From positions 1 to 17,901 of the forward strand of contig WRBZ01000003.1 of NCBI GenBank assembly GCA_009784305.1: 17,901 nucleotides of DNA. Direction: 5' to 3'. The first letter of the stretch is position 1. The number at the start of each line of letters is the position of its first letter. Both the position numbers and the translations under genes were made by a program. Shown one piece after another: positions 2,967 through 17,833 of this stretch. Source of the DNA: Synergistaceae bacterium. Its GTDB lineage: Bacteria; Synergistota; Synergistia; Synergistales; Aminobacteriaceae. The notes beneath the pieces were generated by a model that saw only the letters and a program-made list of their open reading frames with translations, ran no database searches and was not told the origin of the DNA.

Positions 2967-4067
2967 ATGAATATTTTCAGTAGTTGTAAAATTGGTGATG
3001 TGGAACTCTCCAACCATTTAGTCCGTTCTGCAACCTGGGAAGGATTGGCGACGGAGAAAGGAGAAGTCACAGATAATCTCGTTTCATATATCGACACCCT
3101 TGCAAAAGGTGGCATAGGGTTGATAATAACAAGCCATGCGTATATTGAAAGAAGCGGGCAGGCTTCACCGTTGCAGCTTGGAATTTGTGATGATTCAAAT
3201 ATAACGGGATTAAAAAGATTAACTGAAGCCGCTCATAAATCAAAAGTAAAAATTTTTGCACAGTTGAACCACGGGGGATGTCACGCGCTGCCGGAACTTA
3301 CAAAAATGCCATCGTTTGGAGTTTCAATGATAAATACAAGCCGTGGTGGACAAGCACTTGCCATGGGGAGCACAGGAGTTAAAAATAAAATAATGATGTT
3401 TGCAAACTCCGCTGACAGAGCCATTCAAGCCGGATTTGACGGTGTGCAGATACATTGTGCTCATGGTTACCTTATAAGCCAGTTTTTATCGCCTTTCTAC
3501 AATAAACGCAATGATGAATGGGGAGGAAGCCTTGAAAACCGTATGCGATTCCTTCTTGAAACGATTCTTGCTATCAGGATTCGTATAGGAAACCATCCTA
3601 TAATCATAAAACTAAATGTCTCCGATTTTATTGAAGGCGGGATCGAACCTGAACAGATGCTCGAAATTGTAAAATCATTGGAAAATTCAGGTATTGAAGC
3701 CATTGAACTGAGTGGCGGAACTGTTCACCCTGATGGGAAATATAACAGTACTCGCACATTTGACCCTTCATGTCCCGAAGAAGAGGGGTATTACATAGAA
3801 GCAGCTAAAAAATATAAGGAAATTTCAAAAATTCCTTTGATACTTGTAGGAGGATTCCGTTCATACGAGCGTATATCACAAATATTGAGCGATGGAATAG
3901 CTGATTTTGTTTCAATGTCCCGACCGCTTATATGTGAGCCAAACTTGCCTAAACGTTGGAAAGCCAGTAGAGCTAATAATAAACGAAGAGCTAAGTGTAT
4001 ATCCTGCAATGGGTGCAGGCCCACAGCAGTATCTGGAAAAGGATTGAGGTGCATAGTATATGGATAA
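2967..4067 (+). CDS. Old-yellow-enzyme-family NADH:flavin oxidoreductase with C-terminal Cys cluster
   Basis: This 366-residue TIM-barrel protein of the OYE/2,4-dienoyl-CoA reductase family should bind FMN. The signature HCAHGYLISQFLSP (163-176), followed by NKRNDEWGGSLENR, gives the substrate-binding H163/H166 pair and the catalytic-type Y168. VGGFRS (294-299) and SMSRPLI (316-322) fit the FMN phosphate site. The C-terminus carries four cysteines (C344, C347, C350, C362; CX2CX2CX11C), close to the CX2CX3CX11C [4Fe-4S] site of enoate and dienoyl-CoA reductases. The FAD/NAD(P)H domain of those roughly 650-residue enzymes is absent, so electrons must come from NAD(P)H directly or from a partner. 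The usual QLxHxGR motif reads QLNHGGC. The stop overlaps the hutU start by 8 bases, implying translational coupling. The substrate is not known; reduction of a C=C bond in a urocanate-related compound is inference from context. Confidence 0.85.
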   Translation: MNIFSSCKIGDVELSNHLVRSATWEGLATEKGEVTDNLVSYIDTLAKGGIGLIITSHAYIERSGQASPLQLGICDDSNITGLKRLTEAAHKSKVKIFAQLNHGGCHALPELTKMPSFGVSMINTSRGGQALAMGSTGVKNKIMMFANSADRAIQAGFDGVQIHCAHGYLISQFLSPFYNKRNDEWGGSLENRMRFLLETILAIRIRIGNHPIIIKLNVSDFIEGGIEPEQMLEIVKSLENSGIEAIELSGGTVHPDGKYNSTRTFDPSCPEEEGYYIEAAKKYKEISKIPLILVGGFRSYERISQILSDGIADFVSMSRPLICEPNLPKRWKASRANNKRRAKCISCNGCRPTAVSGKGLRCIVYG

Positions 4068-6090
4068 AAATATTAAAATTGGCGAATCAATGAGAATTCG
4101 CCTTGATTTTCCTGAAGGACTGCCGGAAAACCCGGGATTCTTACCTGGATATAGACGAGCGCCCGATAGAGTATATACTTTATCAAAAAATGAGACCGTC
4201 CTGGCTTTGAAAAATGCGCTCCGATATATTCCGGAAGAGTTTCATAAGACAGTTGCCCCTGAATTTCTTGAAGAACTCCGCACAACCGGCAGGATATATG
4301 GATACCGTTTTCGCCCGGCAGGAGCTATTATTGGGAAACCTATATATGAGTATAAGAGCAAGTGCAATGAGGGAAAAGCTTTTCAAGTCATGATCGATAA
4401 TAACTTATCCTTCGATGTAGCTCTTTACCCTTATGAGCTTGTAACATACGGAGAGACCGGTCAGGTATTTCAGAATTGGATGCAGTATCTGCTTGTGAAA
4501 AAATACCTGGAAGAATTGACTCACGATCTGACCCTTGTGATCGAATCCGGTCACCCGATAGGATTTTTCCGCTCACGCTCTGAAGCTCCGCGTGTGATAA
4601 TAACAAACGCATTGATGGTCGGATTATTCGATAATTTGCAGGAATGGCACAGGGCAATGCAGCTAGGAGTAGCGAATTACGGGCAAATGACAGCCGGCGG
4701 TTGGATGTATATTGGACCGCAGGGAATAGTTCATGGTACATACAATACCCTCCTTAACGCCGGAAGGATGAAACTTGGCGCTACCGGCGACGACATGCTT
4801 GAGGGGAACTTGTTCGTCACTTCTGGTTTGGGAGGCATGAGCGGAGCACAGCCTAAAGCAGCTAAAATTGCGCGAGCGACCTCGATAACTGCAGAAGTTG
4901 ATTATTCACGAATTGAAACCCGCCACTCACAAGGCTGGGTCGATAAAGCAACAGCGGATATCAAAGAAGCCTTTGAACTGGCTGATGATTCCATCAGAAC
5001 CAAGAAGCCCGTTTCGATTGCTTTTCACGGTAACATTGTCGATTTGCTCGATTATGCGGTAAAAAATAATATAAGAATTGGGCTTCTGTCGGACCAAACA
5101 TCATGCCATGCTCAGTATGAAGGTGGATACTGCCCTCAAGGGCTTACTTTTGAAGAGAGAACGAGAATGTTAAATGAAAATCCGGCTGAGTTCCGAAAAA
5201 AAGTGGATGAATCGCTCATAAAACACTTTCATTTAATAAAAACCCTTTCTGAACGCGGCACATATTTCTTTGATTACGGAAACGCTTTCTTAAGAGCTGT
5301 ATATGACGCCGGTTGTAAAGAAGTTGCAAAAAATGGAGAGAATACGCATGACGGGTTCATATTCCCATCTTATGTAGAGGATATACTTGGCCCGCTGTGT
5401 TTTGATTTTGGCTATGGCCCGTTCCGTTGGGTATGTCTATCTGGAAAACCGGAAGACCTACGTAAAACAGACCATGCCGCGATGAAATGTATAGACCCTG
5501 AGAGGCGTTTTCAAGATAAAGATAATTGGGTCTGGATCAGGGATGCTGAAAAAAATGGGCTTGTGGTTGGGACTCAAGCGCGTATCCTTTATCAGGACGC
5601 GGAAGGACGGGTAAATATAGCCTTGAAGTTCAATGAAATGGTCAGAAGAGGAGAAATAGGCCCCGTGATGCTTGGACGCGATCATCATGACGTTTCCGGT
5701 ACGGATTCTCCTTACAGGGAGACTTCAAACATAAAGGACGGTAGCAATGTCATGGCGGAGATGGCAACTCAGTGTTTCGCCGGCAACGCAGCCCGCGGTA
5801 TGAGCTTAGTCGCGCTGCACAATGGCGGTGGCGTAGGAGTTGGAAAATCAATCAACGGCGGATTTGGAATGGTGCTGGACGGAAGTTATCGCGTTGATGA
5901 GATAATCAAATCAGCGATGAGCTGGGACGTAATGGGCGGCGTTGCCAGAAGAGCCTGGGCGCGTAATGAAAACGCTTTGAGCGTCAGCATGGAATTCAAC
6001 GAAAATAAAGCAAATATAGGAGAACATATAACATTGCCGTATATTGCGGATGAAGATTACTTAAAACAGCTTGTTTACATTAAATCCTGA
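4060..6090 (+). CDS. hutU: Urocanate hydratase (long form)
   Basis: Urocanase converts urocanate plus water to 4-imidazolone-5-propionate in histidine degradation, using tightly bound NAD+ as an electrophile in the cytoplasm. The 676-residue length matches the long form (as in vertebrate UROC1 and fusobacterial/anaerobe enzymes) rather than the roughly 555-residue proteobacterial/Bacillus form. Visible family blocks include NYGQMTAGGWMYIGPQG, TSGLGGMSGAQPKAAKIA, SDQTSCHAQYEGGYCPQG, C447 just before YGPFRW with LSGKPEDLRKTD after it, GRDHHD (539-544) with SPYRETSNIKDGS, and SLVALHNGGGVGVG. The ATG at 4060 is preceded by GAGGTG 8 bases upstream, whereas the next Met (4090) has no good site. No hutH, hutI or ftcD is in the window. 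The gene forms a two-gene operon with the OYE-family enzyme. Its 3' end overlaps the converging exporter gene by 16 bases. Confidence 0.95.
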   Translation: MDKNIKIGESMRIRLDFPEGLPENPGFLPGYRRAPDRVYTLSKNETVLALKNALRYIPEEFHKTVAPEFLEELRTTGRIYGYRFRPAGAIIGKPIYEYKSKCNEGKAFQVMIDNNLSFDVALYPYELVTYGETGQVFQNWMQYLLVKKYLEELTHDLTLVIESGHPIGFFRSRSEAPRVIITNALMVGLFDNLQEWHRAMQLGVANYGQMTAGGWMYIGPQGIVHGTYNTLLNAGRMKLGATGDDMLEGNLFVTSGLGGMSGAQPKAAKIARATSITAEVDYSRIETRHSQGWVDKATADIKEAFELADDSIRTKKPVSIAFHGNIVDLLDYAVKNNIRIGLLSDQTSCHAQYEGGYCPQGLTFEERTRMLNENPAEFRKKVDESLIKHFHLIKTLSERGTYFFDYGNAFLRAVYDAGCKEVAKNGENTHDGFIFPSYVEDILGPLCFDFGYGPFRWVCLSGKPEDLRKTDHAAMKCIDPERRFQDKDNWVWIRDAEKNGLVVGTQARILYQDAEGRVNIALKFNEMVRRGEIGPVMLGRDHHDVSGTDSPYRETSNIKDGSNVMAEMATQCFAGNAARGMSLVALHNGGGVGVGKSINGGFGMVLDGSYRVDEIIKSAMSWDVMGGVARRAWARNENALSVSMEFNENKANIGEHITLPYIADEDYLKQLVYIKS

Positions 6091-7115
6091 ACAATAAACG
6101 ACACTAACGCTACAGCAACAGAACAGCTAAGCCCAAGCAAAATAGGTTTTTTACCATGCCGTATCAATTCGCGCGGGTTGGTGCTTAAGCCTATGGCAGC
6201 CATAGCGATCATTATGCAGAATTTGCCCATACTGCCCCAAATTTCGCTTATCTGTTCTGGAATGAGATTAAAGCTGTTGATGATGCATGCTACGATGAAT
6301 GCAACAACAAACCAGGGGAAAACTTTGCTTATTTGAAAGCTGCCAGTTTCACCTGTTTTTTTAGCCTGCAGAATTGATAGTAAAAAAGCTGCGGGCATAA
6401 TCATAAGTGTACGCGCCAGCTTCACTACAGTGGCGGTATTACCGGCTTCATTGCTGTAAGAATAAGCCGCTGCCACAACGGATGAGGTATCGTTAATGGC
6501 AGCGCCGCACCAAATACCGAAATGTAAATCACTCATTGATAAAATTCGGGCAACAAATGGAAAGATGAATACGGCAAGTATATTAAAGAGAAAAATGATG
6601 GAGATTGATGTGGCTACCTCACGTTCACTTGCCTTGATAACAGGCGCGATGGCGGCAATGGCGGAACCGCCGCAAATAGCTGTGCCAATTCCAATCAAAA
6701 TTTGCTCATTGGTATGCATACGCAAGGCTTTACCGATAACATTAGCCATCAACAGAGAAGTGGCAATTGTGGCACATATCAATACCAGCCCCTGCCCGCC
6801 CAGAGATAATACATACTTTAAGTTCATCTGAAAACCGAATAAGACGATGGCCGACTGAAGAACCCGCTTGGAAGTCGCTGATATGCCCGACTTGTACATT
6901 TGCGGATATTGCCATATGTTTGCCAATAATATGCCAAGCAGTATTGCAATAACGGCGCCCCCTGCCAATGGAAACAAACGCCCCAAAAACCAGGCAATTG
7001 CGGCTAATAACAGACAGATCAGGGCTCCTGGTAAGTTTTTCTTACTATAATAGTCGAAAGTGGCAATAGGCAGTGTAATCAGTATGCCCGATAAAATACA
7101 GGCAATTTCTACCAT
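6075..7115 (-). CDS. YeiH/PSE-family membrane exporter (UPF0324), candidate sulfite or sulfate exporter
   Basis: This 346-residue, highly hydrophobic protein has about ten predicted membrane segments. It matches the conserved hypothetical 698/YeiH family by GIGTAICGGSAIAAIAPVI, the GIWCGAAINDTSSVVAAA block and the closing MAAIGLSTNPREL. The family is called the putative sulfate exporter (PSE) family because members sit beside sulfonate-degrading genes such as those for cysteate; biochemical proof is limited. Here it follows a cysteate/D-cysteine lyase homologue after a 41-base gap, which supports an oxyanion or sulfur-product export role. The ribosome site is weak (an AAAGAAAAAAGA tract before the ATG), so expression may depend on coupling to the upstream gene. 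Its end overlaps the converging hutU gene by 16 bases. Family is confident; substrate is inference. Confidence 0.85.
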   Translation of the reverse strand: MVEIACILSGILITLPIATFDYYSKKNLPGALICLLLAAIAWFLGRLFPLAGGAVIAILLGILLANIWQYPQMYKSGISATSKRVLQSAIVLFGFQMNLKYVLSLGGQGLVLICATIATSLLMANVIGKALRMHTNEQILIGIGTAICGGSAIAAIAPVIKASEREVATSISIIFLFNILAVFIFPFVARILSMSDLHFGIWCGAAINDTSSVVAAAYSYSNEAGNTATVVKLARTLMIMPAAFLLSILQAKKTGETGSFQISKVFPWFVVAFIVACIINSFNLIPEQISEIWGSMGKFCIMIAMAAIGLSTNPRELIRHGKKPILLGLSCSVAVALVSFIVQDLM

Positions 7116-7156
7116 ATTCTTTTTTCTTTAGCTATGCGTGCTGCAAGGCGTTTGGA

Positions 7157-8158
7157 CTATTTACCAAAGAAGGCCCCGGTATATGCAAACAATGCAACGG
7201 AACCGCCTGTATGGAGGAACAGGATGTTTTTCATACCGTTAAAATATCCATTGCGCAATAAATCAATCATACCAGCCATAGTTTTGCCGGTGTAAACAGG
7301 ATCAAGCAGGATTGCTTCCTTACGTGCCAACAATTTAACAGACTCCAGCATGTCATCCGTTACGCGGGAATAGCCTTCACCTACGTAATCGTCAAAGACA
7401 ATCACGTCTTTTAAAGCCGGTGCTTCCTTGAGGTTTAGTTTTTTAGCCAGTTTTTCGGATAATTCGTACACCATCTTACTTTGTGTTTCCTTTTTGCGAT
7501 TGATACTTATGCCGATAACTGGAATTTGGGCGTTATTGCCTACAATTCCTGTAAGAACTCCAGCATGGGTACCGGCGCTGCCACTGGTGCAGACTATTGC
7601 GCCTATATTTAAATCCATTTCAAAAAACTGATGCAACATTTCCTGTGCGCAGGCTACATAGCCCATCGACCCTATGGCATTGGAACCGCCGCCTGGAATT
7701 ACATAAGGCTTACGGCCACGCGCGCGTAAGTTATCCGCGATGGACTCCATTTTAGCCATCAAATCAATACCGCCTTCCACCACATGAACTTCCTCAACAC
7801 CCAGTAAATCGTATAGGAAGTTATTCCCGCTGGCGTAGCGTTCATAACTGTTGGGCACGCGCTGCTCCAGCACCAGTTGGCATGCGATTCCTTCCTTGTT
7901 GGCTGCCGCCAGAGTCAAACGGCAATGATTTGATTGTATTGCGCCGCAGGTGATAACTGTATCCGCTCCCTGCGCGATAGCATCAGCCATTAAAAACTCA
8001 AGTTTGCGAGTTTTATTGCCGCCTCCAGCTAAACCGAGTAAATCATCGCGCTTAATATAAATATTGGGACCACCCAAATACGCGCTTAAGCATTCAAGCT
8101 TTTCGATAGGCGTTATCCCCATCGTGTAGCGGCGGCGTGGAAACTGACAAAGATTCAT
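7157..8158 (-). CDS. PLP-dependent D-cysteine desulfhydrase / L-cysteate sulfo-lyase family enzyme
   Basis: This 333-residue protein belongs to the ACC-deaminase/D-cysteine desulfhydrase fold-type II PLP family. GGNKTRKLEFL (46-56) contains the PLP Schiff-base lysine K49. QSNHCR (75-80), PYVIPGGGSN (151-160) and TSGSAGTHAG (191-200, PLP-phosphate loop) are all intact, as is the C-terminal HTGGSVALFAY block. The chosen start is the ATG at 8158, preceded by AGAAGGT about 6 bases upstream. An in-frame upstream ATG at 8236 would add 26 unconserved residues and overlap the GGDEF gene. Members release ammonia and pyruvate from D-cysteine (with sulfide) or L-cysteate (with sulfite; CuyA). Motifs alone do not separate these, but the PSE-type exporter directly downstream resembles cysteate-desulfonation loci and tilts the call to CuyA. 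D-cysteine desulfhydrase (DcyD) remains fully possible. Confidence 0.85.
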   Translation of the reverse strand: MNLCQFPRRRYTMGITPIEKLECLSAYLGGPNIYIKRDDLLGLAGGGNKTRKLEFLMADAIAQGADTVITCGAIQSNHCRLTLAAANKEGIACQLVLEQRVPNSYERYASGNNFLYDLLGVEEVHVVEGGIDLMAKMESIADNLRARGRKPYVIPGGGSNAIGSMGYVACAQEMLHQFFEMDLNIGAIVCTSGSAGTHAGVLTGIVGNNAQIPVIGISINRKKETQSKMVYELSEKLAKKLNLKEAPALKDVIVFDDYVGEGYSRVTDDMLESVKLLARKEAILLDPVYTGKTMAGMIDLLRNGYFNGMKNILFLHTGGSVALFAYTGAFFGK

Positions 8159-8195
8159 AATATACCTTCTTTCATAATTATCATTGCATTGGATT

Positions 8196-9092
8196 TTATG
8201 GTAGATCACACCATACAACCCTGTTTTTGCCCTCATTTTTCGCTGTATATAACATCTTGTCGGCTATATCAACAACAGAATTGAGATCTTCTTTTTGTTT
8301 CGGGATCACTGATACTCCGCCAATGCTGACAGTGATTACCGGAGCAACTTTTGAATGTTCATGAGGGATATTAAGTTTCACAACTTCATTACATATTTTT
8401 TCCGATAATCTTTTTCCGCCCTCAGCTGGAGTATTTGATAAAACAAGTATAAACTCCTCTCCGCCGTATCGAGCTGCAAAATCTATTTTACGTCTTAAAG
8501 AATTTGTTATTGTCATAGCAACATACCTAAGAATTTCGTCACCCTTAAGATGACCGTAATAATCATTATAGGATTTAAAATTATCTATATCTATCATGGC
8601 AAAAGAAATCGAAATTTTTTCCCTGATCGCCCTGACCCACTCGGTCTGGGAATGAACATCGTAACTTCTCCTGTTCGGGATCAGCGTAAGTCCATCTATC
8701 AAAGCCAAATCCTCAATTGTCTTACGCATTAAAAAAAGATCAATATGATTCTTAACTCTTGCTTTAACAACACCCAAAGAGAAAGGCTTATGAATATAAT
8801 CAGCAGCTCCAAGCTTAAGCCCCTCTTCTTCAATATCCGGATCTATTAAAGCTGAAATGAATATAACAGGTATATCTTTGGTTTCAGTGGAATCTTTAAG
8901 CCCCTTTAAAACCTTAAATCCATCGATTTGAGGCACTATAAAATCAAGCAAAACAATAGTAGGCAACAGCTCTTTCGCTATTGATATAACATCATTTTTA
9001 TTATCGTATGTTGAAACTCTATAATCATTGCTAAGAGCCTCCGCTAATGTATTCTGACCTAACCCATCATCTAAAATCAAAATCTTTTCCAT
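8196..9092 (-). CDS. Response regulator with GGDEF domain (active-type diguanylate cyclase)
   Basis: This is a 298-residue cytoplasmic protein. Residues 1-122 form a receiver domain with acidic pair D8/D9, phospho-acceptor D50 (IVLLDF) and K102 (HKPF). Residues about 130-298 form a GGDEF domain with DGLTLIPNRRSYD, FAMIDIDNFKSYND, an intact GGEEF active site (210-214) and an RxxD inhibitory site (R201-D204) five residues ahead of it. It should make c-di-GMP from two GTP with product feedback, activated by phosphorylation, as in PleD/WspR-type proteins. No partner histidine kinase is in the window. It lies 46 bases downstream of a degenerate paralogue and 37 bases upstream of the sulfo-lyase gene. 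The ribosome site is modest (AAAGAGAT). The receiver start reads ILILDDGLG, lacking the common Asn after the acidic pair. Confidence 0.93.
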   Translation of the reverse strand: MEKILILDDGLGQNTLAEALSNDYRVSTYDNKNDVISIAKELLPTIVLLDFIVPQIDGFKVLKGLKDSTETKDIPVIFISALIDPDIEEEGLKLGAADYIHKPFSLGVVKARVKNHIDLFLMRKTIEDLALIDGLTLIPNRRSYDVHSQTEWVRAIREKISISFAMIDIDNFKSYNDYYGHLKGDEILRYVAMTITNSLRRKIDFAARYGGEEFILVLSNTPAEGGKRLSEKICNEVVKLNIPHEHSKVAPVITVSIGGVSVIPKQKEDLNSVVDIADKMLYTAKNEGKNRVVWCDLP

Positions 9093-9138: not shown

Positions 9139-10038
9139 CTAATCCTCATCTGAAGCTATCATATTTCTGCCGTAAGCTTTTGCCTCAAACAGCATCTTAT
9201 CAGCCTTTTCAACTAATTCATATATATATTCTCCATAGACTGGTGAAACGGTTACCCCACCTATACTTACAGAAACGATATCTGCAGATCCCGAATAGGC
9301 ATGAGGGATTCTTAAATTCTGAACTGCCTTTTTGATACGCTCATATACAATCCTTGCGCCATTTTTTGCTGTGTTCGGCATGACTATTACAAATTTTTCT
9401 GGACTGAAACGAGCGGCAAAGTCGGTTTTACGCGACATAACATGTCTTATCTCTGAAGCAACAAGCTTAAGTACATCATCACCTCTTGAACTCCCGTAAT
9501 GCTCATTGTAAGAATTGAAATTATCGATATCAATGAAAGCAAGCGAAATCGGCGTTTTCTCTCTGATCGAACGCGCCCATTCCGTCTCAATTTTATCGTC
9601 ATAACTCCTTCTGTTGGGTAATAGGGTAAGATTATCAACAATTTCAAGTTTTTCCACGACTTTTTTCAGCAGGAACAGGTCAACATGAGTCCCAATTCTA
9701 TTTCTCACTATCCCGGGAGAAAAAGGCTTTGAAATATAGTCAACCGCTCCTTGGGAAAGCCATTTGTCTTCCATATCATTATCAACTTGAGCCGAAGCTG
9801 TAATCATTATTGGTATATCTTTTATTTCGCCGGTATTTTTAATAGTAAAGAGAGTTTCTTTTTTATTAATTTTTGGCATATTGCTATCAAGCAGAATAAT
9901 CACAGGCCTATGCTGCTTGGCTTTATTAATCCCATCTCCAGGTTCAAGAGATGATATTACTTCATAAAATTCCTTTAATATATCTTTCAATATTCTTACA
10001 TCCATAGGGTTATCGTCAATTATTAGAATTTTTTCCAT
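9139..10038 (-). CDS. Response regulator with degenerate GGDEF domain (c-di-GMP-sensing candidate)
   Basis: This 299-residue paralogue of the next gene has the same receiver plus GGDEF layout. The receiver keeps D8/D9, D51 (IILLDS) and K104 (SKPF). The GGDEF domain keeps LPNRRSYD and FIDIDNFNSYNE, but the signature is SPEKF (212-216) instead of GG(D/E)EF, so diguanylate cyclase activity is not expected. The RxxD site (R203-D206) is retained, which in other degenerate GGDEF proteins can serve as a c-di-GMP receptor site. The ATG at 10038 is chosen because it aligns with the paralogue (MEKILI) and has AAGGAG 8 bases upstream; a TTG directly before it is possible. The pair looks like a tandem duplication followed by divergence. 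The gene sits 26 bases after the fusion gene. Confidence 0.9.
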   Translation of the reverse strand: MEKILIIDDNPMDVRILKDILKEFYEVISSLEPGDGINKAKQHRPVIILLDSNMPKINKKETLFTIKNTGEIKDIPIMITASAQVDNDMEDKWLSQGAVDYISKPFSPGIVRNRIGTHVDLFLLKKVVEKLEIVDNLTLLPNRRSYDDKIETEWARSIREKTPISLAFIDIDNFNSYNEHYGSSRGDDVLKLVASEIRHVMSRKTDFAARFSPEKFVIVMPNTAKNGARIVYERIKKAVQNLRIPHAYSGSADIVSVSIGGVTVSPVYGEYIYELVEKADKMLFEAKAYGRNMIASDED

Positions 10039-10064
10039 CAAAATACTCCTTATTGATATTGATA

Positions 10065-11687
10065 TTAATATTTATCTATTGCTTTATTGGATAAATAATC
10101 TGCATAAGAATTCTGTTCCCTTGGTATCCATTCATATACTAAATGCATATCTTGAGCTAACAACTTGGCTTGCTTACATAACTCTTTCAGTCGTGGTTCA
10201 TTCACCTTCCATCTTCCACTCATTTGTTCAATTACAAGTTTACTGTCTCCACGAACTATTGCTTTTTTAATACCACACTTACGAAATTCATTCAATAAAT
10301 TTATCAATGCAATATATTCCGCTTCATTATTAGTTTTTTTGCCTAATACATCAGAATTTTCCCATACAGGTTCTTTATTTCCGCAAGATATCCAAGCTCC
10401 TGCTCCGGCAAGCCCCGGGTTCCCGCGCGAAGCTCCATCAAAATAACCAATAAAGGATTCATCAACAGATCCTTCAAATAAAGAGATATTTTCAGAAATA
10501 CGGCTCATAACGTTTACATTTGTAAAGTCACTATCCATTTTTGATGCAGCCGAGAATTGATATTTATGTCTATTTACATCAAAATCAATAGCGTTCTTCA
10601 TTTCTTCCAGTTTAGTTCTGCTAAGTGAAACTTGAGGCAGCACTATGTCTTTTTCGAGAGGCTTCCTCGCAAGTTTTTCATCAATAAGAGCGCTTGATAT
10701 CAGAGGTTGCAGGATCGAGAGCATAAGTTTTACAGTATTAATAGATCCCAACAACCCACATTTAGCCTCTTGAATGTCTATTATGGGAATACCTTTTATA
10801 TTTGTCAGCAAGTCATGCGCATTGCCGATAATTTGCCCGGTTTTTCCTCGCAACAGCTCCACGGGGTTACTTGTATAAGTAGCGCTGTTCATTATGAGCC
10901 ATCCGAATTCTTGAGAACTATATATCGCGAAATCTTCCGCCAAGCGGTTTGTGTGAATGCTAAAAAGAGTGGCAAAATGATGATAATCCGCTATGTAATC
11001 ACTTGACATTAGCGTATCGAGGTAGTTATTTGCCGTAGTAGAAAATCCAAGAATTTTATAGACTAATTCCCTATCATATTTCTGAGTAGGCCACGTAAGC
11101 TCGCTAACTCCAAGAGTACATTCATTCGTCGAATTAAACGCAGCTATGAGGCGTATTAAGTCACGGGAAAACGCATCATAATGGGCAAGCCAGTAATGCC
11201 CAATATTTATTGTCTGCGCTTGCCGTAAATAATTATATCCTGGAACTATAAGAGAATAATGAGACTCCGCTCGCTCTAAAAGACATTCTAACACGGAAAC
11301 CATTATATTTTTTATCTCAAAAAGCTGCGCCCTCATATAGAGCTTTAAAGTAGTGGTAATTTGATCATTACGGTTGAGTTCGGTATGAAGTTTAGCTCCT
11401 GCTGCTCCTATTTTTTCTATTAATCTGGCTTCAACATTCGAGTGAACATCATTATATTCAGTTTTTTGTATAAATCTACCGGTTAAAATATCATCTTTTA
11501 CAGAAATAAGTCCGGATTCAATCTCAATAAACTCTTTATCATCAATTATGCCAATTTTATTTAGCATTATTGCATGAGCGATTCTAGCTATAATGTCAAA
11601 TTCCGCAAGTTCCCAATCGCAATCAGGCGATTTTGAAAGCTCAATCCCAGCCTTCGCGGTATCATTATCAAAACGCCCTTTCCACAT
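10065..11687 (-). CDS. Argininosuccinate-lyase-like pseudoenzyme fused to RNase HI
   Basis: This is a continuous 540-residue frame. Residues 1 to about 340 follow argininosuccinate lyase: MWKGRF start, HSNVEARLIEKIG, KLHTELNRNDQITT (99-112), VPGYNYLRQAQT (148-159), SSQEFG (257-262) and ELLRGKTGQIIGN (277-289). Key elements are lost. The catalytic His of GYTHLQ is Y153, and the mobile GSSIMPQKKNP loop is about 10 residues shorter and reads NSATYTSNP (267-275). The lyase C-terminal domain is missing. A linker (about 340-410) leads to an RNase HI domain at 411-540 with DGASRGNPG, TNNEAEY, RGDSKLV and NSYADYLSNKA, so the four catalytic acids D417, E457, D481 and D530 are present. Expected: no lyase activity, probable RNA/DNA-hybrid cleavage, and unknown ligand sensing or oligomerisation by the lyase fold. 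The ATG at 11687 has CGGAGAG upstream. I know of no named family with this architecture. Confidence 0.85.
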   Translation of the reverse strand: MWKGRFDNDTAKAGIELSKSPDCDWELAEFDIIARIAHAIMLNKIGIIDDKEFIEIESGLISVKDDILTGRFIQKTEYNDVHSNVEARLIEKIGAAGAKLHTELNRNDQITTTLKLYMRAQLFEIKNIMVSVLECLLERAESHYSLIVPGYNYLRQAQTINIGHYWLAHYDAFSRDLIRLIAAFNSTNECTLGVSELTWPTQKYDRELVYKILGFSTTANNYLDTLMSSDYIADYHHFATLFSIHTNRLAEDFAIYSSQEFGWLIMNSATYTSNPVELLRGKTGQIIGNAHDLLTNIKGIPIIDIQEAKCGLLGSINTVKLMLSILQPLISSALIDEKLARKPLEKDIVLPQVSLSRTKLEEMKNAIDFDVNRHKYQFSAASKMDSDFTNVNVMSRISENISLFEGSVDESFIGYFDGASRGNPGLAGAGAWISCGNKEPVWENSDVLGKKTNNEAEYIALINLLNEFRKCGIKKAIVRGDSKLVIEQMSGRWKVNEPRLKELCKQAKLLAQDMHLVYEWIPREQNSYADYLSNKAIDKY

Positions 11688-11727: not shown

Positions 11728-12825
11728 TTAGCGATCCCTTAAGTAAACTTTAGCTTCCTCTTCTTTGGCATAATTCTTCCAATGCTGAAGCTGCCCTTCA
11801 AATATAAGATTTCGAAGGGCTTCAGTTATCTTTGTGAAGCCATAAGTAAAAGAATCTGTAGAAGATGTAACATTTATACTTACCTTCAAAGTTTGAGCTA
11901 TTCTTTGATTGGATGAACTTACATTATTTGTTAGACCTAATATACGCTCCGTTGGCCCCGAAGCCCCTTGCGCGTGAATAGTTCCAAAAACTAAATGTCC
12001 GGTTTCCGCAGCGTTCAATACAGACAAGGCAGTTTCCTGATCTCTTATTTCCCCCACAAGTATTATGTTGGGAGTTTCTCTCATAGCCTGCCTGAGAGCA
12101 GTAGGATAATCAGGCACGTCTGAGCCTATTTCTTTTTGTGTCGCATACCCTAATCCCTCGTAAAGAGTGTATTCTATTGGGTCTTCTATTGTTATGACGT
12201 GCACTGGATATTTATTTATATATTCCTGTAATACTGAAGCAAGAAGGGAGCTTTTTCCGCTTCCAGTCCTTCCTGCTATCAATATAAGACCTTCATTTAT
12301 AGGCTTTTCTCCAAATATTTTAAAAAATGAGCTGGCGCCCGTTAAATTAGGAGGCATAGCTCTTATAGGGAGTATTCTTATAAAGATATGTTCCATTGTT
12401 CTATCCATTGAATAACTCCTTGTAACACGCATTCGCCTTATTAAGCCGCCGCTGTCATTTGAGAGGAACATACACCCTTCTTCTATAGTTTTATCTATAT
12501 CCACTACAAATGGAGGATTTATTACACCATTCCATGTAGCTCTGCAGACAGGAACTCCTATTTTGTTATATTTCAATACGGGAATATTCTTTCTTGGAAT
12601 GTAGACATGAGCATCGGATAATCCCTGGCTGAAAAGGACTTCGGATAATTTTCTTGCTCCTGGTACTTTCACTACATTCTCCAGAGGATAATCCCCGGCT
12701 CGAGGAAATTTTTTATTATGAGATGAACTTAGTGTGCTTTCACCGAGTTCATCCGATCTGTTCCAATCCTTAGAGCTTGAATCCGGCTGTATACCGAGCA
12801 ATTCAGATAAATCTTTTACTTCCAT
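11728..12825 (-). CDS. PilT-like secretion/retraction ATPase
   Basis: This 365-residue hexameric-type ATPase belongs to the type II/IV secretion superfamily. It has Walker A GRTGSGKSS (185-193), Asp box ITIEDPIEYTL (211-221), Walker B IILVGEIRD (254-262) and His box TGHLVFGTIHA (275-285). The GEIRD form and the C-terminal EALRNLIFEGQ resemble PilT, the type IV pilus retraction motor. The first 50 or so residues are polar and unlike PilT, and the SDAHV text (70-74) corresponds to the SDLH region of the PilT N-domain. No pilin, PilB, PilC or secretin gene is in the window, so it is an orphan here. Its start lies within the end of the DUF501 gene (23-base overlap), preceded by AAGGGGGAT. It could work in twitching, surface sensing or a non-pilus process. 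Confidence 0.9.
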   Translation of the reverse strand: MEVKDLSELLGIQPDSSSKDWNRSDELGESTLSSSHNKKFPRAGDYPLENVVKVPGARKLSEVLFSQGLSDAHVYIPRKNIPVLKYNKIGVPVCRATWNGVINPPFVVDIDKTIEEGCMFLSNDSGGLIRRMRVTRSYSMDRTMEHIFIRILPIRAMPPNLTGASSFFKIFGEKPINEGLILIAGRTGSGKSSLLASVLQEYINKYPVHVITIEDPIEYTLYEGLGYATQKEIGSDVPDYPTALRQAMRETPNIILVGEIRDQETALSVLNAAETGHLVFGTIHAQGASGPTERILGLTNNVSSSNQRIAQTLKVSINVTSSTDSFTYGFTKITEALRNLIFEGQLQHWKNYAKEEEAKVYLRDR

Positions 12826-13426
12826 GTTTTATCCCCCTTAACGGTTTGGCATTGCAATAATTTAAGCAGAATGACGAAATATTTTCTTTAAACCAACCTT
12901 GTCCGGGATGGAATCCCAGGGAAAGTAAGGAAGCCATTTGTAAATGCAAACATTTAACCTGAACTTCTTCATTGATTCTAATTCCGCCTATACCTATATT
13001 ACCATCATATAAGCTTTTATATAAAGATAAATTATTTTTCTTTAAAATATTTAATTCAACTTCACTCGTAAGGTTTATTCGAATTTTCACATGTAGTCTA
13101 TTATATTCCTTCCATTCAGCTTTAGAATTCTCTTTTATGTATGTTTCAAGTTTTTTAACTCCACCTAAAGATTCAAGTTGTCCTGCCATCTTTACAAAAA
13201 AAGGGCAGGACAACCAAAAACTGTTTGGGAAAGGCAGGCCATTATGTAATGATTTGCATAAAATTACTTGTGGTTTTCCATACAAACAGCGCGATGTCAC
13301 GCCTAAAATCAGGTTCGGATCAAATTTTCTTTTTTTCATCTGCTGAAGAATTACATCAGCATCTTCTTCTGAAACCACATAACGAGTGCATAACTCTTTT
13401 TCCCACTCGTTATTTAGGTCTATCAC
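12803..13426 (-). CDS. DUF501 domain protein
   Basis: This 207-residue protein is of unknown function. Family blocks are visible: RCLYGKPQV (46-54), GLPFPNSFWLSCPFFVK (63-79) and VKCLHLQMASLL (157-168), followed by a GFHPGQGW region that replaces the more usual NPVG. Conserved Cys and His residues (C47, C74, C159, H161) suggest metal binding or catalysis, but no activity is established for the family. The start is GTG and overlaps the upstream stop as GTGA, with only a weak ribosome site, so translation is likely coupled to the S1-domain gene. DUF501 genes occur next to cell-division or S1-type genes in other bacteria. The extra C-terminal tail (about 180-207, with C187 and C191) is not explained. 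Confidence 0.8.
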   Translation of the reverse strand: MIDLNNEWEKELCTRYVVSEEDADVILQQMKKRKFDPNLILGVTSRCLYGKPQVILCKSLHNGLPFPNSFWLSCPFFVKMAGQLESLGGVKKLETYIKENSKAEWKEYNRLHVKIRINLTSEVELNILKKNNLSLYKSLYDGNIGIGGIRINEEVQVKCLHLQMASLLSLGFHPGQGWFKENISSFCLNYCNAKPLRGIKHGSKRFI

Positions 13427-13866
13427 TTTTGCTTAACACCACTTGAGCGGCGTTTGCTTCCTTTTGGATTATTAAGCTTAATATTTAAATCTGCAATTTT
13501 TGATTCACTGTTCTTTAGGAAATTTGAGAGACGTTTCTCAAATGAATCCTTATCCTCTTTTGTTAATGCTGGCTGTTGAAGAACAGGAGCTTTTTCTTCC
13601 AATTTTTTTATAGATAAGTCAATGCGCCCTTTCTCATCGATTTTTATCACAGACGCTTTAATTTCTTGACCAACAAAAAGTACATCTTCAACTTTCTTTA
13701 CAAAATTTGCAGAAAGTTCAGATATATGAACCATACCTCTTTGTTTTGTCGCCAAAACTCGAACAAATACACCATATTGCATTATTTGTTCTACTACGCA
13801 ATCAACTGCATCTCCAACTTGAACTGAAGAGGACTCGGCCTTCTTCTCCTCAAACATGTACCCCAT
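13423..13866 (-). CDS. S1-domain RNA-binding protein (YabR/GSP13-like)
   Basis: This 147-residue protein carries a single S1 OB-fold at about 16-92: VGDAVDCVVEQIMQYGVFVRV, then RGMVHISELS, VGQEIKASVIKID and GRIDLSIKK. The tail (95-147) is lysine-rich and probably disordered. Small single-S1 proteins of this kind bind RNA or ribosomes under stress in Firmicutes; the target here is unknown. The start is uncertain between ATG 13866 (3 bases after a perfect AGGAGG) and ATG 13857 (12 bases after it). The gene is coupled by GTGA overlap to DUF501. Confidence 0.88.
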   Translation of the reverse strand: MGYMFEEKKAESSSVQVGDAVDCVVEQIMQYGVFVRVLATKQRGMVHISELSANFVKKVEDVLFVGQEIKASVIKIDEKGRIDLSIKKLEEKAPVLQQPALTKEDKDSFEKRLSNFLKNSESKIADLNIKLNNPKGSKRRSSGVKQK

Positions 13867-13896
13867 AAACCTCCTGTAATATGATATTTACGATAT

Positions 13897-14505
13897 TCAA
13901 TTCTTAGATTGACTCCCAATTTCAATCCATCGCCAATCAATATCTTTATCTCCTAATCGCTTATACATATAAAGCCCTTTAGGGTCAAAACTTCTGTTGA
14001 TTGAATTGTACCAAATAAATAAAGAACCATTTTGCTTATTTAAAACAAGTTTTGATACATTATCATGTATTATTGGCTGAAAATAAGCTAAATTAAACTC
14101 GTTTTTTTCAGTAACCCTCTCATTTATAGGAATAAATGATAATCTGTTTCGCCTTTCTTGCGGCAACAAAGCAAATTGTTTCCGCCATTTTCGTAAATGT
14201 ACCGCAATTTTTAGTGAAACTTCTTTTGACTTAATTTCACCAGGAGCATAGCTTTTTATCTTGTCTCCCTTAATTTTCGCAGATAAACTTTTCATTTTCA
14301 TGCTGCTATTCACACATGCAAGTTTCCCGCAAGAAAATTGTAAGGGAGAAATAATCCTGGCTTTCGCAACACCTTTATATACTTCTATATTTCTGTTTAA
14401 ATTTAAAACATTCATTTTATGCATGCTAAAGCAAAAAGAGTGTACAGGGATACGTCCCAAAAAATAACGGGAAAAATATTTACGAATATCCTCTCTATTT
14501 ACCAT
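13897..14505 (-). CDS. Unrecognised basic protein
   Basis: This is a 202-residue protein I do not recognise. It is rich in Lys and Arg, has no signal peptide or membrane segment, and contains a middle patch KIAVHLRKWRKQFALLPQER (about 99-118) that suggests a nucleic-acid or acidic-partner surface. The C-terminal part is rich in aromatic residues (SLFIWYNSINRSF and DIDWRWIEIG). It begins 11 bases inside the end of the upstream unknown gene, with AAGGCG just before the ATG, so the two are likely translated together. It lies between an S1-domain gene (30-base gap) and the FapA cluster. The coding call rests on frame length, ribosome site and tight packing. Confidence 0.65.
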   Translation of the reverse strand: MVNREDIRKYFSRYFLGRIPVHSFCFSMHKMNVLNLNRNIEVYKGVAKARIISPLQFSCGKLACVNSSMKMKSLSAKIKGDKIKSYAPGEIKSKEVSLKIAVHLRKWRKQFALLPQERRNRLSFIPINERVTEKNEFNLAYFQPIIHDNVSKLVLNKQNGSLFIWYNSINRSFDPKGLYMYKRLGDKDIDWRWIEIGSQSKN

Positions 14506-15064
14506 CGCCTTGTATCTCTGTGGCTATTGTGCGCAATGCCTTCTGCATTCTGCTGAATGGTTCCGTCAGCTCCATTGTTTGAGAAGCATTAACTAGTAGA
14601 TTAACCACAAATTTAACTTCATTCTCAGCAACATTAGGTTGGAACGTTATTTTTAAAGGGGCGCTGACTGAATCAGCCTGAACAAAATAAACCCCGTTCT
14701 CTCCTGTAGACTCAATATCACCTGCTGAATCAAGCGGATGATGGTTACTGTTCATAAGCATAATTGCCTTGCTTTTTGTAAAAAAACGCAACGGCGCTAA
14801 TAGATTCTGTTCCCTACAAATCCATAAAGCTGGTTTGGCTTCAACTGCGCGTATAAGGCTTTCGAGAATAAGCTCTTCTTTTAAGTACACTTCAAGAGCA
14901 TTTCCATATAGAACCTTTTCAAGCTTTGTTGGGCGTATTGGCTCAGTGTACCTGAAATCAACAGGTATCCCTCTTAAATCTGACGCAAGGACAGCCCCGC
15001 GAAATGAACCCTCTTCAGCCTCTATTATTATATAAGCTAAACTGTTATTATCTGCAACCGGCAT
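14495..15064 (-). CDS. Unrecognised protein in the flagellar-sigma cluster
   Basis: This 189-residue protein has no motif I can name. It appears to be a compact soluble alpha/beta protein: an N-terminal strand-rich part (LAYIIIEAEEGSFRGAVLAS), then FRYTEPIRPTKLEKVLYG (37-54), then a helical segment (YLKEELILESLIRAVEA), and a C-terminal part rich in strand-forming residues. There is no signal peptide or transmembrane segment. An AAGGAT site lies 8 bases before the ATG at 15064. It is 20 bases downstream of the small charged protein gene and overlaps the next gene by 11 bases, so it belongs to the fliA-fapA gene train. Any link to flagella is by position only. Confidence 0.65.
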   Translation of the reverse strand: MPVADNNSLAYIIIEAEEGSFRGAVLASDLRGIPVDFRYTEPIRPTKLEKVLYGNALEVYLKEELILESLIRAVEAKPALWICREQNLLAPLRFFTKSKAIMLMNSNHHPLDSAGDIESTGENGVYFVQADSVSAPLKITFQPNVAENEVKFVVNLLVNASQTMELTEPFSRMQKALRTIATEIQGDGK

Positions 15065-15084
15065 ATTAATTCAATCCTTTTATG

Positions 15085-15414
15085 CTATACGTAAAAATCA
15101 TACCTACCATTTTTCTGAATAGGGATTTGTGCTGCATTTTGTTCTTCTTCATCTGTTTGCATCAGTTTTTTGTTTTGCTCCTCATGTTTTTGTTTTCTTT
15201 CTTCACGCTGTTCATCATCTGTTTTACGATGTACTTTTTCAGTCATCAAAACCTCATCGCTTGGTTGTACTTCCTGTGTTTTTTTATAGCTATCTTTAAG
15301 AATCTCGTTCATTTGAGAAGTCTGTTGAGCTTGCGCCAACGAGCCTTTTGATGTCTGGGCAAGAAATTCAACTCCGAGAGTTCCTTGCTGCAAACCTATT
15401 GGCTCAATTACCAT
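15085..15414 (-). CDS. Small charged protein, probable coiled coil
   Basis: This 109-residue hydrophilic protein is very rich in Gln, Glu and Lys (for example about 45-95), with predicted helix and coiled-coil character and no hydrophobic core or signal peptide. The short N-terminal IEPIGLQQGTLGVEF and C-terminal GRYDFYV ends look like peptide docking motifs flanking a disordered middle; that reading is inference. A strong AAGGAGGG ribosome site precedes the ATG at 15414 by 6 bases, supporting real translation. It lies 25 bases after fapA and 20 bases before the next gene. I do not recognise the family. Confidence 0.65.
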   Translation of the reverse strand: MVIEPIGLQQGTLGVEFLAQTSKGSLAQAQQTSQMNEILKDSYKKTQEVQPSDEVLMTEKVHRKTDDEQREERKQKHEEQNKKLMQTDEEEQNAAQIPIQKNGRYDFYV

Positions 15415-15439
15415 GAAATTCCCTCCTTATACCTATAAT

Positions 15440-17044
15440 CTATGATCTATAATCATATGAACGTAGCTTAACTTCACCCTCTTCAAAAACAAAAGAACAA
15501 AATTTAAATGGTTCCCTAATCAAATATGTATATCCGCGTATTGTAATCGAAACGCCAGAATAACAAACATCTTTAACTCTAACTATCCCTTGAGCTTTAG
15601 TTGTTTCAAGCATTTGGTCAATTTCATGTAATTCTTTCGTTGCATTTTGCAGTTGAGCCTGTACTTGAAATTTTGTTTTCGTGATAGATATCAATAAAGC
15701 TCTTTTGTCATCATCAAGGGCTTGCGCAGCCTCAAGTTTTTTTAAAAATGTTAAATTTGCTTCTATTTTTTCCATATTCTCATTATATGCTGAAAGTGAC
15801 GCAACTAATTCCTTCTTGCGCGCGGCGTAAACCGGGGAAACACCAACTATCACTTCAGTTTTTGTTCCCATTTCGCTTCCCATAGTTGAACATGAAACTT
15901 CAATTGCCGCTTGAATCTTACCTCCTGCAATTTGTGATTTTCCACTACCGGATACTATAACAGACCCGCCCGCAAATATATCACTGTGCAGAGCAGCGTT
16001 GTGCACCAGCACATCCCCTCCGGCAGTCAATTCAGCCTGGTCAACAAAGCCAATATCAATTCTACCTGCGGCAATAATTCTAGCTTTATCCATCCCACGA
16101 ACGCCGCCTCTGATAAGTATATCCCCTTTACTCTCAACATGAGCGCCCTCTACAACTTCAGCAATCTCTATATCTCCTGCTGCTATAACTCTAAATCCAT
16201 CTTTAACTGCGCCTTTTATTTTTACAACGCCGACGAAATCAATGTTTCCTACATGAAAATCCACATCACCTGAGACATTTAGTTCCGGCGATATGGTTAA
16301 TCTGTTATCGATTTTTTTCAAACACCCACTGATTTCAGCTAACAGCGTTGATCCATCTTCAGAAACCACAGTGCCTGCACCGTTTGGAAAAGGTATTTCC
16401 TTTCCCGGCTTCGCCTTAATGGGTACATTTGAAACACTTATGCCATCTATTCCGTCTGTAGGAGGAAAGCGCACTGCAAGGACATCTCCCTGAGAAACGT
16501 TAATAATCAAGCCACGTTCTCTATGATCAATTCTCTCTTTATTATTTTCCGATCTATCTGTTTTTGAAGATAGATCAATTTTTACCTCAACCCATCCATC
16601 TTTACCAACCACCGGTCCTATTCCTTTTGCTGCTACTACAGGTTCATTGCTTACTCGATTATTGATAATATCTGAAATAACGTTATCATCAATACCGTAA
16701 ACTATATTTTTCTCAGCAAGAGCGCTTCTAATCTGAGCTAATGTAGGCCACGGTTTTGTAAAAAAAGGCGGCGTTATATTCACACTTGCCTCCATATGAT
16801 CTTTTGACACAGATACAGTTATAACAGCATCATTCTCAGGATTTAAATTTCTTTCAGCTATTTTGTATGGGGACTTGCCTTGTGCGCGTACGAAAGCTTC
16901 TACTGATTTGTTGTCAAATTTAAGTATGCCTTTAAGTCCGAGAAATTGGAGCAATAAAGGTAGTGAAGGACATTCTTCTCCTTCGGCTAAATTTATAAAA
17001 ATTCCATCTTTGCGTGCTTCTAGCAGGACTAAATCTTGTTTCAT
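15440..17044 (-). CDS. fapA: FapA-family (DUF342) flagellar assembly protein
   Basis: This 534-residue protein belongs to the DUF342/FapA family, cytoplasmic polymer-forming proteins linked to flagellar assembly and polar placement. The N-terminal part (1 to about 175) includes FVRAQGKSPYKIAERN. The family core follows: GDVLAVRFPPTDGIDGISV (186-204), GKEIPFPNGAGTVVSEDGS (214-232) and ISPELNVSGDVDFHVGNIDF (251-270). Next comes a right-handed beta-helix region of repeated G-(D/S)-(I/V) turns (about 255-400), then a coiled coil (about 405-482) and a closing beta segment (487-530). A GGGGGGAG ribosome site lies 5 bases before the ATG. It starts 14 bases after the sigma factor gene, the usual close pairing with fliA. 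The exact molecular function is not settled in the family. Confidence 0.9.
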   Translation of the reverse strand: MKQDLVLLEARKDGIFINLAEGEECPSLPLLLQFLGLKGILKFDNKSVEAFVRAQGKSPYKIAERNLNPENDAVITVSVSKDHMEASVNITPPFFTKPWPTLAQIRSALAEKNIVYGIDDNVISDIINNRVSNEPVVAAKGIGPVVGKDGWVEVKIDLSSKTDRSENNKERIDHRERGLIINVSQGDVLAVRFPPTDGIDGISVSNVPIKAKPGKEIPFPNGAGTVVSEDGSTLLAEISGCLKKIDNRLTISPELNVSGDVDFHVGNIDFVGVVKIKGAVKDGFRVIAAGDIEIAEVVEGAHVESKGDILIRGGVRGMDKARIIAAGRIDIGFVDQAELTAGGDVLVHNAALHSDIFAGGSVIVSGSGKSQIAGGKIQAAIEVSCSTMGSEMGTKTEVIVGVSPVYAARKKELVASLSAYNENMEKIEANLTFLKKLEAAQALDDDKRALLISITKTKFQVQAQLQNATKELHEIDQMLETTKAQGIVRVKDVCYSGVSITIRGYTYLIREPFKFCSFVFEEGEVKLRSYDYRS

Positions 17045-17058
17045 AATTCTCCCCCCTT

Positions 17059-17802
17059 TTAATGAAGCATCCTTTTCATGGAAGCAAGAGCTTTTCCATG
17101 TATCTGTGATACGCGAGACTCGCTTACTCCAAGTACATTACCAATTTCTTTCAATGTTAAACCTTCATAATAATATAAAGACAGTACCTGCATTTCCCTT
17201 TCCGGCAATTTTCTAAGTGAAGAAGCAACTCGTTCAATTTCATCTTCATTCTCTAAAATATCCTGAATCGACTCCCCATCATGCGGTAAAGCCTCTTCAA
17301 GCGTAACTTCGCCATCTTCAAATGCGACCATCTCATCAAGCGAAACAAAATAAGTACGGCTCGCTAACTCAAGGGTCTCACGATAAATCTTTTCATCAAC
17401 TCCCATTTCTTCGATCAAGTATTTATCATGTAGAGACCCTTTTTCCTGTAAAACCTTATCCATAGCTTTATTCAGTTTTTGTAGTTTTTCTCTGCCTGTC
17501 CTTGATATCCAATCATATTTGCGCAATTCATCAAGAATTGACCCTCTTATTCTTGGGACAGCAAATGTTTGAAAAGAAAAACCTTTTGAAATATCAAATC
17601 TGTTTACAGCATCTAATAGTCCAAAAACTCCAAAACTCAACAAGTCTTCATAATCAAGCCCGGACGGAGGCGACACTATCATTCTCCCTACCACATACTT
17701 CACGAGAGGAAGATAACGCTTAACAATTTTCTCTTTATTGATTTCAGTGGGAGAGGTTAAATATTCATCCCAAAGCTGAGAATCCGAAGATTTGCGCTCC
17801 AA
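17059..17802 (-). CDS. fliA: FliA/WhiG-type RNA polymerase sigma factor (sigma-28)
   Basis: Sigma factor of the flagellar/motility group, directing RNA polymerase to late flagellar and chemotaxis promoters. With the TTG start at 17802 the protein has 247 residues. Region 2 (about 25-96) contains YLPLVKYVVGRM, LDYEDLLSFGVFGLLDAVNRFD and FQTFAVPRIRGSILDELRKYDW, followed by ISRTGREKLQKLNKA of region 3. Region 4 (about 193-245) contains LPEREMQVLSLYYYEGLTLKEIG and VSESRVSQIHGKALASMKRML, the DNA-binding helix-turn-helix. The longer reading from a TTG at 17823 would place the strong AGGAGG inside the coding sequence, so the downstream TTG is preferred. Anti-sigma FlgM is not in the window. The gene heads the minus-strand train with fapA. 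Confidence 0.93.
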   Translation of the reverse strand: MERKSSDSQLWDEYLTSPTEINKEKIVKRYLPLVKYVVGRMIVSPPSGLDYEDLLSFGVFGLLDAVNRFDISKGFSFQTFAVPRIRGSILDELRKYDWISRTGREKLQKLNKAMDKVLQEKGSLHDKYLIEEMGVDEKIYRETLELASRTYFVSLDEMVAFEDGEVTLEEALPHDGESIQDILENEDEIERVASSLRKLPEREMQVLSLYYYEGLTLKEIGNVLGVSESRVSQIHGKALASMKRMLH

Positions 17803-17812
17803 AAGTGAATTA

Positions 17813-17818
17813 CCTCCT
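17813..17818 (-). promoter_or_regulatory. Shine-Dalgarno site deciding the fliA start
   Basis: The minus strand reads AGGAGG here, 10 bases before the TTG at 17802 and 3 bases after the upstream TTG at 17823. It is the only strong ribosome site near the sigma gene. It supports the downstream TTG as the initiation codon. Confidence 0.65.
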
Positions 17819-17833
17819 CTCAACGCTCTTCAT

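Follow-up and report, generated by a model that had tools for sequence, protein, structure and literature searches.

The window analysed here, a stretch of 17,901 nucleotides from a Synergistaceae bacterium, carries on its reverse strand a single reading frame (Table 1) whose N-terminal part is a catalytically dead argininosuccinate lyase (ASL) and whose C-terminal part is a type I RNase H. Judged from its sequence, the gene is a derived, lyase-dead member of a clade of ArgH-RNase HI fusions. The best explanation, which is held to be moderately probable, is that it descends from such a fusion with its RNase HI at work and its lyase half turned into a folded, probably oligomeric carrier. The frame contains no internal stop, and GCGGAGAG lies upstream of its ATG start.

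Table 1. Location in the window of the fusion gene, its parts and the genes upstream of it
Feature	Position	Strand	Remark
Whole ArgH-like/RNase HI fusion gene, 540 aa	10065..11687	-	
Residues 1-344, dead argininosuccinate-lyase domains 1 and 2	10656..11687	-	
Span of five domain-2 helices (106-142, 162-186, 230-256, 275-299, 305-332), spared core	10692..11372	-	
Residues 149-160, eroded PGYTHLQQAQP segment (T152N, H153Y, Q155R, P159T)	11208..11243	-	
Residues 272-275, site of the mobile catalytic loop: 8 residues (GSSMMPQK in P0002) gone after 272 and 2 (DA) after 275	10863..10874	-	
Residues 302-304: 3 residues (YDR in P0002) gone after 303	10776..10784	-	
Residues 345-348: 82 residues (ASL C-terminal domain) gone after 346, alignment A1	10644..10655	-	
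Residues 347-410, last ASL helix of relatives and variable linker	10458..10649	-	pLDDT below 50 at 382-409
Residues 411-540, type I RNase H with D417, E457, D481, D530	10068..10457	-	
Upstream genes: PilT-like ATPase, DUF501, S1, two unknowns, short ORF, FapA-like protein, sigma factor	11728..17823	-	

Loss of the lyase chemistry

Residues 1-339 score 255.7 bits against the argH family TIGR00838, under its cut-off of 279.5; Lyase_1 (90.2 bits) and PRK12308 are also matched by the protein. The predicted structure appears to keep the ASL fold, and the best structural matches of the model are the avian delta-crystallins. The first-pass annotation had described this half as devoid of the chemistry of the enzyme, and the motifs that it named are indeed changed or deleted. 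The GYTH histidine has become a tyrosine (the window reads GYNY, through T152N and H153Y), the mobile loop GSSxMPQKxNP has been shortened by an 8-residue deletion that removes its serine and lysine residues, so that T272 now adjoins SNP, and QEDK reads QEAKC. The C-terminal ASL domain is gone as well, PF14698 being absent from the window protein while it is listed for the related fusions P0002-P0006 and found in P0003.

In alignment A1 with P0002 all four gaps (Table 1) are in frame, and a further gap of 10 residues falls in the variable linker after residue 379. A second alignment placed the first three gaps identically and split or placed the large C-terminal gap differently. In duck numbering, which was counted on the alignment and is consistent with the published mutants T161, H162, S283 and H91, T161 corresponds to N152 of the window protein, H162 to Y153 and D330 to A308, and S283, K289 and Y323 lie inside deletions. 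The equivalents of duck H91, N116, E296 and K331 are still present, and N107, H82, E277 and K309 remain in the active-site region. In the goose protein, one report describes H160 as important for catalysis and bonded by E294 (PMC2779060).

The RNase HI half

The C-terminal half is matched by RVT_3 at residues 416-536 (67 bits) and by RNase_H (33.8 bits), both above cut-off. The four RNase HI acids that had been noted as kept (D417, E457, D481 and D530) align to those of the solved Rv2228c (3hst), which is the nearest solved RNase H to this half. By family score and catalytic acids the half is a type I RNase H, and its substrate is presumably the RNA of RNA-DNA hybrids. No second RNase HI was matched in the window's own genome (G000, a 78% complete assembly); RNase HII was identified in 8 of 10 genomes and not found in G000 or G012, an absence that carries little weight at 78% completeness. 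GGAAG stands immediately 5' of Met363, which makes an internal start and a separately made RNase H possible.

Stand-alone RNase HI genes of Synergistota, of which 20 out of 29 matched places were used (L132-L151), carry a C-terminal C-x-C...C-x-H motif in 18 cases, and the one that was scanned (L134) matches the SWIM zinc finger just above cut-off. The SWIM-type motif is absent from all six ArgH-RNase HI fusions described below. Other arrangements of the domain also occur: P0123, a Synergistales protein of 476 aa, joins an N-terminal RNase HI to a C-terminal HD phosphohydrolase and HD_assoc, and P0121, P0122 and P0124 (600-810 aa) hold two to four RVT_3 stretches per chain.

A clade of fusions and the place of the window gene

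Lyase and RNase H domains occur together in the window protein and in P0002-P0006, six proteins among 120 listed of 2320 matches (7998 scored candidates). A further search, using as query the RNase H portion of P0003, a Synergistaceae MAG protein, recovered these six again and added no lyase fusion among the matches listed (best 120 of 5444). The fused protein proposed by the first-pass annotation is therefore real, with one open frame and at least five relatives of the same domain order; these are longer (607-647 aa), and in all five the four tested lyase motifs are intact, which leaves the window as the derived exception.

The six fusions are separated from all other rows by one branch in the ArgH tree (IQ-TREE, 43 rows; support 100/99) and likewise in the RNase H tree (IQ-TREE, 37 rows; 95/86, with a long-branch warning). 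Since they group together in the trees of both halves, a single fusion of a working ArgH with an RNase HI explains all of them, and the window protein, with its N-terminal ArgH and C-terminal RNase HI, belongs to this group. Its ArgH end branch measures 0.49 as compared to 0.06-0.11 in the three nearest relatives, and its RNase H end branch 0.27 as compared to 0.11-1.29.

At the genome level, this type of RNase HI is held by 96 of 185 Synergistota genomes (E 1e-15), and a frame longer than 348 aa was seen only in G000 (546). The P0003 query was matched in 79 of 81 family genomes, with both parts in one ORF only in G000 among the matches listed. No DNA of an intact fusion was found in named genomes by the P0003 scan (at least 80 loci), as every listed match ends by query residue 485, before the RNase H.

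The order sigma factor, FapA-like gene, two unknowns, S1, DUF501 and argH is common to the window and to two other loci with long flanks, L049 and L062; the names FapA-like protein and sigma factor for the window genes are our assignment from the type of sequence. Among the loci with short flanks, DUF501 (and S1) stands beside argH in many and no neighbour was matched in some. This shared order indicates that the fusion occupies the ancestral Synergistaceae place of argH. Relatives with a normal argH at the locus, which the first-pass annotation would have taken as a refutation, were indeed seen, but they do not refute the fusion since they mark the ancestral state. In L057 (Thermovirga) and L062 a gene of 302-313 aa, which we take by eye to be Ppx/GppA-like, lies between DUF501 and argH.

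The neighbours had been named correctly, as a partial PilT-like ATPase and two response-regulator GGDEF proteins, and they give no functional link to the fusion. The PilT-like gene (11728-12825, reverse strand) scores 155 bits against a cut-off of 319, with only the middle of the family matched; it sits between DUF501 and the fusion, is unmatched in the relatives' loci shown and is thus a local oddity. The tandem GGDEF proteins (9139-10041 and 8196-9092, both reverse strand) read GGEEF in one and SPEKF in the other, so that the second is probably an inactive cyclase. Further along, a D-cysteate sulfo-lyase (CuyA, above cut-off) adjoins a putative exporter of YeiH type (below cut-off) at 6075-8236 on the reverse strand; the two may form a sulfite release and export pair. 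At 2967-6090 on the forward strand, a 366-aa old-yellow-enzyme protein matches only the first part of 645-aa families; after it comes a urocanate hydratase that matches its family from residue 101 onward.

No other argH or RNase HI was found in G000 (78% complete, 272 contigs), where the first-pass annotation had proposed to look for separate intact copies. The gene argG is absent from G000 and from G001 of the same genus; 46 of 47 good genomes have it. It is also lacking in 4 of 7 other family genomes that are less than 90% complete, so that a loss of the arginine pathway is only suggested. The ornithine carbamoyltransferase-type family (PF00185) was detected in 11 of 12 genomes, among them G000 and G001. 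G001 has no argH match and also lacks DUF501, and its missing argH therefore says nothing about this locus. ArgJ (PF01960) was matched in 0 of 59 genomes, while argG was matched in 52 of the 59 and ArgJ in 10 of 14 control genomes.

Decay of the lyase half and its spared core

The chief rival explanation is plain drift, by which the lyase half would be a decaying leftover without any structural role, kept in frame only for the downstream RNase HI; it has an appreciable but minor chance of being right. The overall pattern of substitution speaks for it. Changes were counted against an ArgH panel (P0001-P0045 without the short P0039 and P0043, of 363 and 313 aa), excluding columns less than 80% filled or with disagreement among P0002-P0004, which left 260 of 340 window sites. 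The lyase half is changed at 72 of these: 36/124 sites with at least 90% conservation among 39 reference rows, 19/82 at 60-90% and 17/54 below 60%. Counted against the other two of the trio, the same classes give 1/125, 5/87 and 16/70 for P0003, 3/127, 5/87 and 16/70 for P0004, and 3/127, 4/86 and 5/59 for P0002. Change over residues 1-340 of the window protein is thus independent of conservation (Spearman 0.04, p=0.5). The replacements are about as radical as in simulated mutation (mean BLOSUM62 -0.24 versus -0.30 to -0.42), whereas those of the five relatives are milder (0.11 to 1.00). In the RNase H half 0/34, 2/27 and 2/25 sites are changed; the trend with conservation (Spearman -0.24, p=0.025; Fisher p=0.15) is a weak test, resting on 4 changes at 86 sites. 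The loss of the whole ASL C-terminal domain also fits drift, as does a precedent from Mycobacterium smegmatis, for which a study reports that growth, though slightly delayed at 24 h, is hardly affected by removal of CobC from RNase H-CobC, and proposes fixation by drift (PMC7466739).

No stop codon interrupts the lyase half, while 3.4-7.3 would be expected from mutation alone (72-102 missense changes). The likeliest reason is that the downstream RNase H is needed in the same frame, an argument that becomes weaker if the internal start at Met363 is real. Base composition by codon position did not clearly separate the two halves.

The distribution of the changes over the fold argues against uniform drift. 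In ASL and delta-crystallin the central bundle is built from domain-2 helices (PMC4701392), and the bundle was defined here as every modelled domain-2 helix of at least 20 residues, five in all. It is changed at 19/115 sites as compared to 53/145 in the rest (Fisher p=0.00044), and at 5/48 as compared to 31/76 among sites conserved in at least 90% of rows (p=0.00023); permutation within conservation classes gave p=0.0001. These values are optimistic because other partitions of the same data had been tried earlier (by conservation, by hydrophobic or polar character, by helix or non-helix, and by hand-picked segments). No difference between bundle and rest was detected in the relatives P0002-P0006 (p=0.36 to 1), and inside the window bundle the trend with conservation is weak (Spearman -0.13, p=0.17). 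Elsewhere, 20/66 sites are changed in domain 1 and 33/80 in loops and strands. The sparing argues for the keeping of a folded core, short of demonstrating a tetramer, and selection against aggregation alone could also yield it. The first-pass annotation had suggested a tetramerisation platform; this is partly borne out, in that the sparing favours the helices from which the ASL tetramer is built, and an oligomer of the window protein itself is probable.

The signature segments C1-C3, whose limits are our own assignment and a few of whose residues overlap the bundle, are changed at 10/29 sites in the window protein and at 0 to 2 of 29 in the five relatives. A separate active-site test (39/85 versus 33/175) was discarded because its segments had been chosen after the changes were seen. 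Nor is the active site claimed to be the most eroded part, the 10/29 of C1-C3 not exceeding the 33/80 of loops and strands.

The state of these segments bears on a second rival explanation, put forward by the first-pass annotation, in which argininosuccinate, arginine or fumarate bound at the old active site would control the RNase H. The fold kept in the model and the remaining N107, H82, E277 and K309 leave some room for such a ligand. The segments C1-C3 fare no better, however, than the other sites outside the bundle, and deletions have removed the catalytic loop, the Tyr-Asp-Arg stretch and the C-terminal domain, which makes ligand gating very unlikely. A new or residual enzyme activity of the lyase half might be expected of a versatile superfamily whose fold persists in the model, but it is scarcely credible with the equivalents of duck T161, H162, S283, K289 and Y323 changed or deleted. 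An error of assembly or consensus that joined or damaged two genes, conceivable for a single contig of a draft genome in 272 contigs (78% complete) and named beforehand as a possible refutation, is extremely unlikely in view of five separate proteins of the same domain order, a shared upstream gene order and a frame still open after 72 substitutions at 260 compared sites.

Proposed origin and significance

In the preferred reading, a working argH at a conserved Synergistaceae locus would have gained a C-terminal RNase HI, as the relatives and both trees support. In the lineage of the window, selection for lyase activity would then have ceased; the loss of catalytic residues, of the mobile loop and of the C-terminal domain can be read from the gene itself. 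The RNase HI has remained conserved, probably as the sole RNase HI of the cell, given that no other was seen in the 78% complete genome. M. smegmatis does not survive the loss of both its type I RNases H (PMC4429107), which offers a precedent for the need to retain the C-terminal half. The lyase half would persist as a folded carrier in which the tetramer helices are spared and erosion affects the active-site segments, the loops and domain 1, and the RNase H is therefore probably displayed on an oligomeric ASL core. A more specific version, offered tentatively and rather doubtful, is that the pseudo-lyase tetramer acts as a multivalent chassis on which four RNase HI domains gain avidity for RNA-DNA hybrids in place of the SWIM-type zinc finger; catalysis would then have been lost and the oligomer core kept.

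A fusion known from sequence both with and without an intact lyase opens the worth of a fused metabolic enzyme to its partner to direct study, and poses for a dead enzyme the question whether it is junk held in frame by its neighbour or a scaffold. An eroded active site and eroded loops around a spared oligomer core provide a testable signature for how pseudo-enzymes arise. The case also suggests that what is probably the only RNase HI of a cell can ride on an unrelated housekeeping protein.

Comparison with known systems

Fusions of metabolic enzymes with RNase H are known, but no description of a lyase-dead ASL carrier was found. No published account of an ASL-RNase H fusion was found in the open-access literature, in agreement with the initial statement that the architecture is not a described family. 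The closest parallel is RNase H-CobC (Rv2228c/MSMEG_4305; NCBIfam NF005567), in which an RVT_3-type RNase HI is likewise joined to a metabolic enzyme and the domains diverge at different rates (PMC7466739). Its partner, however, is a C-terminal phosphatase of vitamin B12 synthesis, whereas that of the window protein is N-terminal and dead. ArgH itself (TIGR00838) is homologous and encoded at the same locus in relatives, but the window protein falls below the family cut-off and lacks the catalytic loop, catalytic residues and C-terminal domain. Marine gamma proteobacteria reportedly possess an ArgH with a C-terminal partner of the N-acetylglutamate synthase type, similar in position to the partner in the window protein; there, in contrast, the partner works in the arginine pathway and the lyase is presumed active. 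Avian delta-crystallins, among which delta-1 crystallin is catalytically inactive, differ from the window protein in keeping the full fold, and we know of no nuclease attached to them. They resemble it in the use of the ASL fold as a structural protein (PMC4701392).
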